A stretch of 64,000 bases of DNA from Gracilibacillus orientalis (GTDB lineage Bacteria > Bacillota > Bacilli > Bacillales > Amphibacillaceae). This document shows, piece after piece, positions 18,267-47,437 of this stretch (within the stretch, counting starts at the first letter, position 1; each line of letters opens with the position of its first letter). The notes below the pieces were generated by a model, which was not told the origin of the DNA, made no database searches, and worked only from the letters and a program-made list of their open reading frames with translations. The position numbers were made by a program, and so were the translations under genes. Where the stretch lies: assembly GCF_900114645.1 (NCBI RefSeq), contig NZ_FOTR01000010.1:1-64000 (forward strand), read 5' to 3'.

Positions 18267-18296
18267 AATAAAAAACCACCAATTATGTATTGGTGG
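18267..18296 (-). terminator. ssrA terminator overlapping the encoded CCA end
   Basis: On the minus strand CCACCAA (18296-18290) pairs with TTGGTGG (18282-18276) and is followed by T6-A-T6. The 5' arm is the 3' terminus of tmRNA itself, including the encoded CCA. Confidence 0.85.
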
Positions 18297-18943
18297 AGAC
18301 GGTGGGACGTGCTCTTCCATGCTTTCGCCATGGCACTGACTATATCTTGAGCCTGCATAGTCTTAACAGGTTCCTCGGCGTATTATACAAAATTTAGATT
18401 TACTTTCTTATGACAGAAAGTAGCATTTTGCATCCTAGTACTACCCAAATAAAAGGGCAGTCTATAAGTCGATACACGGCTGTTGAATTACTTCACATAC
18501 CGCTCGATGTTGCCTTATTACCAAAATGGTAACGTAGGTTTCACCGATAAAGCCGAATTTTCACTCATGTGTTACCACATAAGGCGACTATTTTCTAATC
18601 GAACCCACGTCCAAAGATATCGCCACTCAGGCATCTACACGCATAGTCGGTATATTAAGAGTTCGCTAGCTCATCTGCCTACCAACAGGCGTCCGAGTAG
18701 CTAGTCTGATTAGTCTCTTCTACCGATCCCCAGACGGAGGATAGTAGCGTAGCCCACTAATGAGTGTGACCCTTCAATCTACCACATGGGCGATGGTAGG
18801 AAGGATCCTTCAACAGTGCTTACGCAGCTGCTAAAGAGTAATTGTTTTCTTTGCCAGTTATTATTGGCGTTAACGTTTTACGAGACGTAACCTCGACGCG
18901 CAACCTGAGCTCAATCTACCCCTGTCGAATCCGTAACGTCCCC
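18291..18943 (-). ncRNA. ssrA: tmRNA (ssrA), interrupted by a group I intron
   Basis: Transfer-messenger RNA for ribosome rescue. The 5' end GGGGACGTTACGGATTCGAC and the 3' end GTCTCCACCA are the classic tmRNA termini that pair into the tRNA-like acceptor. The tag frame (18855-18820) reads GKENNYSLAAA before TAA; with the charged alanine the tag is AGKENNYSLAAA, ending in the ClpXP-recognised LAA-type tail. The T-arm GTGGGTTCGAT is separated from its partner TCCCAC by a 290-nt insertion with group I intron features. Removing it leaves 363 nt, a normal bacillar length. The smpB and rnr genes follow upstream as in other Bacillaceae. Confidence 0.96.
18308..18597 (-). other. Group I intron in the tmRNA T-loop
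   Basis: A 290-nt insertion. The exon 1 end is T (18598), the intron's last base is G (18308), and exact joining restores TTCGATTCCCAC, a proper T-loop and T-stem. Both ends obey the group I rule (U before the 5' site, omega-G at the 3' site). The core is recognisable: GACTAT (18363-18358) pairs with ATAGTC (18343-18338) as P7, and the 3' strand lies in AAGATATAGTC, a typical P3/P7 sequence. A P9-like hairpin with a GAAA loop follows (about 18333-18316). GTCG near the 5' end can pair with CGAU of the exon as P1. No homing endonuclease frame is present. Confidence 0.88.
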
Positions 18944-19066: not shown

Positions 19067-19531
19067 TTAGCTTAGTCTATCTTTAATTGCTCGATCCATA
19101 TCTCGTTTTGCCTGTTTCTGTTTCAAGTCTTCCCGTTTGTCATATTTCTTTTTCCCTTTGCCTAATCCAATTAACACTTTAGCAAAGCCATTTTTAATAT
19201 ACACCTTTAACGGGATAATCGAATATCCTGTTCGCTGACTTTCCCCGATTAATCTATCGATTTGCTTACGATGTAATAATAATTTACGGGGACGAGTAGG
19301 CTCGTGATTATAACGGTTTCCTTGTTCATAAGCTGAAATGTGCATATTGTTTACGTACGCTTCCCCTTGTCTAATTGTTGCAAAACTGTCTTTTAAGTTG
19401 ACTCGTCCAGCCCTGATTGACTTAATCTCCGTCCCTTGAAGGACAAGTCCAGCTTCAAAGGTTTCCTCTATAAAATAATCATGATTTGCTTTTTTGTTTT
19501 GTGCGATTACTCTTCCATAACTTTTTCCCAT
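19067..19531 (-). CDS. smpB: SsrA-binding protein SmpB
   Basis: 154 residues, the usual length. SmpB binds the tRNA-like domain of tmRNA and delivers it to stalled ribosomes. Family blocks are visible: [29 protein letters not shown] at 12-40 in part, [21 protein letters not shown], and the basic C-terminal tail [20 protein letters not shown] that enters the mRNA channel. AGGAGG precedes the ATG. It sits directly upstream of ssrA, its RNA partner, and downstream of rnr, which degrades non-stop mRNAs; this is a functional cluster. Confidence 0.97.
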
Positions 19532-40898: not shown

Positions 40899-41060
40899 GA
40901 AACAAAAGGTCCCTCTTGATAAACAAGAGAGACTCTGGCGATTATCTCCCTCTTATTTTCCAAACTAAAGTTTGCAGGATTTAGCACCTTTTAAGCGTAA
41001 ATCACTTAAGGTTGCCGGGTTTCTTCGGGCCAGTCCCTCCACCACTCTTCATAAGAGTAT
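40899..41060 (-). promoter_or_regulatory. SAM-I riboswitch (S-box), internal to the operon
   Basis: On the minus strand the aptamer opens CTCTTATGAAGAGTGGTGG, continues GAGGGACTGGCCCGA and ACCCGGCAACC, and closes with ATAAGAG near 40956-40950 (P1 pairs with CTCTTAT). The terminator stem (40933-40924 with 40918-40909) is followed by CCTTTTGTTT. The closing strand AAGAGGGAGA can alternatively pair with the terminator's first arm, giving an antiterminator. SAM binding should therefore switch expression off. The aptamer begins only about 10 nt after the stop of the acyl-CoA synthetase gene. Confidence 0.94.
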
Positions 41061-47264: not shown

Positions 47265-47437
47265 AAATTCAAAAAAGCCTTCTTCGATAAGAAGAAGGCT
47301 TTAACTGACATAACAGTAGACTTCCTCTTATCTTTCAGGATTAGTATCCTGCAGGAATTAGCACCTTTTAAGCTGTTGCTTAATGGTTGCTGGGCATCAT
47401 CGGGCCAGTCCCTCCGCCTCTCTCGATAAGAAGTATA
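47265..47437 (-). promoter_or_regulatory. SAM-I riboswitch (S-box) upstream of metY
   Basis: On the minus strand: CTTCTTATCGAGAGAGGCGG, GAGGGACTGGCCCGATGATG, CCAGCAACC, then the closing strand GATAAGAGGAAG (47333-47321). The terminator is a 12-bp stem (47302-47291 with 47285-47274) followed by TTTTTTGAATTTTT. The closing strand is also nearly complementary to the first terminator arm (CTTCTTCTTATC), giving the antiterminator of this transcriptional OFF switch. Confidence 0.96.

Follow-up and report, generated by a model that had tools for sequence, protein, structure and literature searches.

A group I intron, probably of the IA type and free of an endonuclease gene, in the tmRNA T-loop of Gracilibacillus orientalis

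The split ssrA gene and its boundaries

The window analyzed, i.e., the first 64,000 nucleotides of contig NZ_FOTR01000010.1 of Gracilibacillus orientalis, carries ssrA, the gene for the tmRNA that rescues stalled ribosomes, on the minus strand (18291–18943), interrupted in the T-loop at TTCGAT|TCCCAC by 290 nt (18308–18597). The precursor of 653 nt consists of a 346-nt 5' exon running from the acceptor-stem GGGGACG to the T-loop TTCGAT (18598–18943), the insert, and a 17-nt 3' exon (18291–18307) comprising TCCCAC, the acceptor CGTCTCC, an A and the encoded CCA. Joining of the exons by script gave a spliced tmRNA of 363 nt, in which the T-arm (GTGGG-TTCGATT-CCCAC) and the acceptor stem (GGGGACG/CGTCTCC, with one G-U pair) are complete, and in which the tag reads GKENNYSLAAA (18820–18855 with the stop, minus strand). 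The initial annotation had described a 290-nt split between TTCGAT and TCCCAC whose removal restores a canonical T-arm and a 363-nt RNA, and its coordinates, length and junction proved exact. Of the tmRNA models suggested there as a check, RF00023 recognized the 5' part with 155.6 bits, but its alignment broke at the T-loop.

A terminator-like hairpin (18276–18296, minus strand) overlaps the CCA end, although the consensus scan that found it is expected to give 0.5 such hits by chance in the region. Directly upstream of ssrA and on the same strand lies an open reading frame (19067–19531) that we take, from its sequence and the gene order, to be smpB, the gene of the partner protein; a Priestia record has smpB annotated in the corresponding position. 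Across the whole genome, the assembly of which is rated 100% complete, one tmRNA match lies over the cut-off and eight weak ones lie below it. ARAGORN, as run, omitted the ssrA gene from its list. Elsewhere in the window, two SAM riboswitches were detected on the minus strand (40950–41057 and 47325–47432, with 89.0 and 94.9 bits).

As had been proposed, the insert is free of an endonuclease gene, its longest stop-to-stop frame being 44 aa without a Pfam hit, and it lacks the mark of a homing (mobile) group I intron. An endonuclease was also considered, and rejected, for the longer introns of the host family (412–430 nt), where the extra length corresponds to P5 or P7.2 extensions; two frames from such introns (genomes G079 and G110) gave no Pfam hit. 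Four introns of 423–430 nt (G066, G079, L103 and L119) have in common a P5 insertion of about 140 nt that looks related, and the longest frame of the one in G079 is without a Pfam hit. Outside the family, an Omnitrophota MAG (L107, 500–1180) contains a 661-nt tmRNA intron with a 183-aa LAGLIDADG-like frame, scoring slightly below the Pfam cut-off of 22.5 bits (20.4 bits, E 6.4e-4).

Among 17 Gracilibacillus genomes, the insert was found in six (272–290 nt), while in the remaining 11 the site is uninterrupted, TTCGAY being followed directly by TCCCAC. These 11 genomes show the ligated exons, so the intron boundaries are observed rather than guessed. The junction follows from the empty sites except for the usual one-base ambiguity, which is resolved by the rule of a U at position -1 and a terminal G. 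In all six genus introns found by BLAST the -1 U takes part in the U·G pair of P1, and all six end with a G before TCCCAC (18308 in the window), so that the claim that both splice sites obey group I rules holds within the genus; for the loci from named genomes described below, the terminal G was required by the script. According to the position rule in PMC11915505, the insertion point lies between T-loop nucleotides 6 and 7, and the T-arm is rebuilt on excision. A separate observation concerns the 73% complete genome G008, which has two intronless tmRNA copies (on C8 and C46), the one on C8 without an encoded CCA.

Comparative fold and recognition by Rfam

A pattern scan of named genomes returned at least 117 loci, and among the matches listed 69 were called tmRNA introns by script; one (L154) was rejected by eye, leaving 68. 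The first alignment (A1) holds 48 introns, namely that of the window, the five others of the genus and 42 of the 68, with 26 omitted (introns of other phyla, those of two distant Bacillota, L082 and L094, and long introns). The second (A2) holds 36 diverse introns, namely that of the window, four others of the genus and 31 of the 68, Proteobacteria and an Anaerolineae MAG included. The structure scored has 80 pairs, five of which belong to the T-stem.

In A1, 99.0% of the cells are paired in a P1–P9 group I fold with P7.1 and P7.2, compared with 31.6–38.7% in slid controls. Double changes occur at 31 of the 80 pairs and in 192 cells, whereas shuffles averaged 47.8 such cells and none of the 500 reached the observed number. 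In A2, pairing reaches 92.5%, with double changes at 52 of the 80 pairs (0/500 shuffles as good); P8 (78.2%), P9 (71.8%) and P6a (72.7% and 84.8%) are paired less well, probably in part due to misalignment. Additionally, the fold of the window intron has a z of -3.97 relative to shuffles (0/200 as good), and unconstrained folding of the window precursor recovers most of the same nested helices.

All helices are on the minus strand. P1 (18585–18601) pairs exon CGAU with the guide GUCG, a U·G pair marking the 5' splice site; since its letters belonged to the search pattern, conservation of P1 among the 42 named relatives is by choice. P2 (18564–18583) is capped by a GUAA tetraloop and shows double changes at 5/8 pairs. 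The core P3–P8, with P7 crossing P3, is present: P3 is formed by UUCGGC (18552–18557) and GCCGAG (18374–18379), P4 and P5 occupy 18504–18547, P6 and P6a with a GUAA tetraloop 18477–18502, and P8 18351–18371, with double changes in A1 at 3/6 pairs of P3, 1/5 of P4, 2/3 of P6 and 2/5 of P8. P5 is also the site of the extension of about 140 nt in some relatives. The GAAA-capped P9-like hairpin noted in the initial annotation was found, together with P9.0, at 18309–18336, immediately ahead of the terminal G. P9.0 sets the position of the 3' splice site, and in A2 all three of its pairs show double changes. Inspection by eye revealed no conserved P10.

The 5' strand of P7, GACUUAUA (18463–18470), is the true partner of UAUAGUC (18338–18344). 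TCGACTYATAG is found in 48/48 introns of A1 and UAUAGUC is invariant in the same 48. P7 is paired in 100% of the A1 cells, yet it is invariant and therefore without covariation support, its assignment being based on agreement with the RF00028 alignment; in A2, six of its pairs are invariant and the seventh fails in 13/34 rows. The P3/P7 core recognized earlier stands, but the pairing given for P7, AAGATATAGTC with GACTAT, was wrong. GACTAT (18357–18362) sits in the loop of P8, is carried by only 2/48 introns and shows no covariation, and a P7 of GACTAT with ATAGTC pairs 41.0% of the cells as against 37.3–44.0% for slid versions. The true 5' strand at 18463–18470 of the minus strand is GACTTATA.

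In the comparative fold both P7.1 and P7.2 lie between P7 and P3 (18385–18460), and P7.2 covaries (double changes at 7/9 pairs). This arrangement is a feature of subgroup IA, and the intron is probably of the IA type. The phage T4 td intron is a group IA intron with P7.1 and P7.2, and resembles the window intron in these two extra stems, while the host genes differ.

The Rfam group I model, also suggested as a check, matched 18317–18607 of the minus strand with an E-value of 3e-5 for the 801 nt searched and of 4.2e-5 genome-wide, but its 28.7 bits fall below the gathering score of 50, which is a curator's cut-off and no defining feature of group I introns. When nine other tmRNA-intron loci were searched whole, one scored above the gathering score (51.3), two below it (41.2 and 36.8), and six, including four genus relatives, were absent at E 0.1. 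RF00028 thus detects this class poorly, and its match alone would not have settled the group I identity. Within the intron it was the sole Rfam family above chance, and no riboswitch was found. The same genome holds a second group I intron (G000:C23:181458–181894, i.e., L009 1501–1937), which with 59.6 bits is over the Rfam cut-off; the gene that it breaks resembles what we presume to be a ribonucleotide reductase, probably of class II.

Known class, distribution and turnover

Group I introns at position 7 of the tmRNA T-loop were reportedly first described by Williams in 2002. According to a 2025 survey (PMC11915505), 883 of 97,179 unique tmRNA sequences are of the intron form, most with the intron at T-loop position 7, mainly in Bacillota and from 21 phyla in all; endonuclease genes occur in 36 of the 883. 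The window intron agrees with this class in the gene, the loop position 6/7, the -1 U and the terminal G, and its 290 nt compare with a mean of 293 nt in the 843 founding introns of the survey. As here, the class is mostly without an endonuclease gene and predominantly from Bacillota, and no difference of kind appears against that description (PMC11915505). The tmRNA intron of Clostridium botulinum, as described in PMC2729099, was previously shown to self-splice and has the same P1 substrate CGAU and similar lengths (287 nt, with a 5' exon of 338 nt). It belongs to another genus, and its 3' exon is given as 24 nt, whereas that of the window is 17 nt. The window intron is therefore a member of the known position-7 class, real and ordinary, and not new in kind, as hundreds of other bacteria are known to have a tmRNA gene split in this way. 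A literature search on tmRNA group I introns in Oceanobacillus, or on their loss in Bacillaceae, found no paper in the collection searched.

In the host family, Amphibacillaceae, three patterns were run against 159 genomes, of which 30 matched none and are unclassified. Of the 129 classifiable genomes, the intron is present in 37, and the site is empty in the others, with -1 T in 55 and with -1 C in 37 (38 places, G008 having two). The intron occurs in 17 of 46 genera, eight of which also contain empty sites. The comparison of ssrA in related genera, as proposed earlier, thus yielded both states, and the statement that such introns are known but rare is correct world-wide (883/97,179 unique sequences, PMC11915505) but not within the family (37/129). 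Three introns have identical counterparts in named records, that of G080 in Oceanobacillus profundus and those of G157 and G158 in Virgibacillus halodenitrificans. No intron follows a -1 C in any of the 159 genomes with the pattern used. A link between -1 T and the intron was considered but not demonstrated; Fisher's test gave p 3e-7 ignoring kinship, but the median over independent pairs was p 0.125.

A quick tree from smpB and the exons was built for 113 of the 129 genomes, 16 being dropped because no smpB turned up in the stretch examined; it is unrooted and has many weak branches. Intron presence requires at least 25 changes on it, 19 of them forced by supported branches, and on an unrooted tree such changes do not separate gain from loss. 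With shuffled labels a mean of 30.2 changes was needed and 4/500 shuffles were as low, so that presence is only mildly clustered. The 16 rows of the genus alone account for four changes, and the nearest tree row to the window genome (G012) is intronless. In the intron tree there are two changes within the genus, at weak branches, and a single origin within the genus was not recovered. Intron distances correlate with smpB distances (r 0.62, 0/2000 permutations, 35 genomes) and with exon distances (r 0.54), the correlation between exon and smpB distances being 0.69. Because the intron tracks smpB about as the exons do, these data suggest inheritance that was for the most part vertical, with frequent clean loss. 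Sideways transfer is suggested by some pairs, for example G065 and G067, whose introns are 5% apart as against 17% for the exons and 24% for smpB.

BLAST found no relatives of the intron in phage records and, in plasmid records, one partial match, to an intronless Priestia ssrA. On viral contigs, tmRNA genes with apparent T-loop introns were seen in L197 (507–1570), L207 (207–1361) and L206 (102.4, 65.8 and 102.4 bits, respectively), of which RF00028 listed L207 alone (41.5 bits). L197 and L207 have endonuclease-like frames on the opposite strand. The former (1036–1479) matches Pfam LAGLIDADG_3 above the cut-off (E 3e-5) and a PHROGs HNH family, and the latter (776–1330) matches a PHROGs endonuclease (E 1.6e-17) and, in Pfam, gives a weak Myb match only. 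Phages could spread these introns. Two further viral tmRNA genes (L202 1–425 and L204 1064–1497; 106.6 and 91.9 bits) carry a guide-like GTCG soon after the T-loop; intron ends were not found in them.

Proposed explanation, alternatives and significance

What was observed, namely a split gene with empty sites in relatives, a covarying fold and a patchy distribution, is almost certainly best explained by an endonuclease-free, probably IA-type self-splicing group I ribozyme, inserted between T-loop nucleotides 6 and 7 and probably behaving as a near-neutral selfish element. The transcript would fold around P3/P7, with the guide GUCG paired to exon CGAU. An external guanosine would then attack after the U; the exon end released in this way would in turn attack after the terminal G, held by P9.0, thereby joining TTCGAT to TCCCAC and restoring the T-arm. 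Judging from these features, the intron very probably self-splices in G. orientalis. As for its history, it would persist mainly by inheritance, often being cleanly lost and occasionally moved sideways; the direction of these changes and the neutrality are inferred.

It has also been proposed that splicing could control ribosome rescue, i.e., that the efficiency of splicing depends on the condition of the cell and determines how much working tmRNA there is. Such a switch would act on a gene that is the only one over the cut-off in the genome, so that tmRNA would have no second source if the transcript stayed unspliced, and there is a precedent in C. difficile, where a group I intron has been co-opted into a c-di-GMP switch (PMC3984707). 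However, no riboswitch or other Rfam family rises above chance within the intron, and intron presence changes 25 or more times over 113 genomes, supported branches forcing 19 of these changes. Sister species thus often lack the intron, which speaks against its having a regulatory function that is essential. The proposal is unsupported, turnover among close relatives makes it less likely, and we consider a switch very improbable. Even less credible is a decayed, splicing-incompetent relic that leaves ssrA non-functional. The RF00028 score below the gathering score would be in line with it, but the core, P1 and P9.0 are intact, as are the tag frame and the acceptor stem, smpB is retained, and a 100%-complete assembly offers, apart from eight weak matches, no tmRNA other than this one.

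A further possibility is that the intron is kept for interrupting the T-loop and 3' end of ssrA, which integrating islands use, and so protects the gene. In the genomes that contain the ssrA 3' 17-mer in at least one exact copy (one intron-containing and 17 intronless genomes without it being excluded), a second copy was present in 0/36 genomes with the intron and in 8/75 without it (p 0.052, kinship ignored). Counting two displaced cases, the latter becomes 10/75 (p 0.029, kinship again ignored and the inclusion chosen after the table was seen). The second copies are possible traces of islands. However, only three (or four) of the 51 intronless genomes with the same -1 T have one, the statistics ignore kinship, and the displaced cases entered late. 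The counts are no more than suggestive, and protection from islands is in our opinion very unlikely, if somewhat less so than a switch.

For annotation, our results carry a warning, as ARAGORN as run omits the split ssrA and the Rfam group I model scores its intron below threshold. It is an improbable idea that the intron is tolerated or favoured for breaking the ssrA 3' end, where genomic islands like to insert; if that were true, its repeated gain and loss in the family would reflect ongoing competition of a ribozyme with integrases over one site. Finally, since the intron is clean and well bounded and has intron-free sister species, the family provides a natural test of what a ribozyme costs or brings its host in an important RNA gene.
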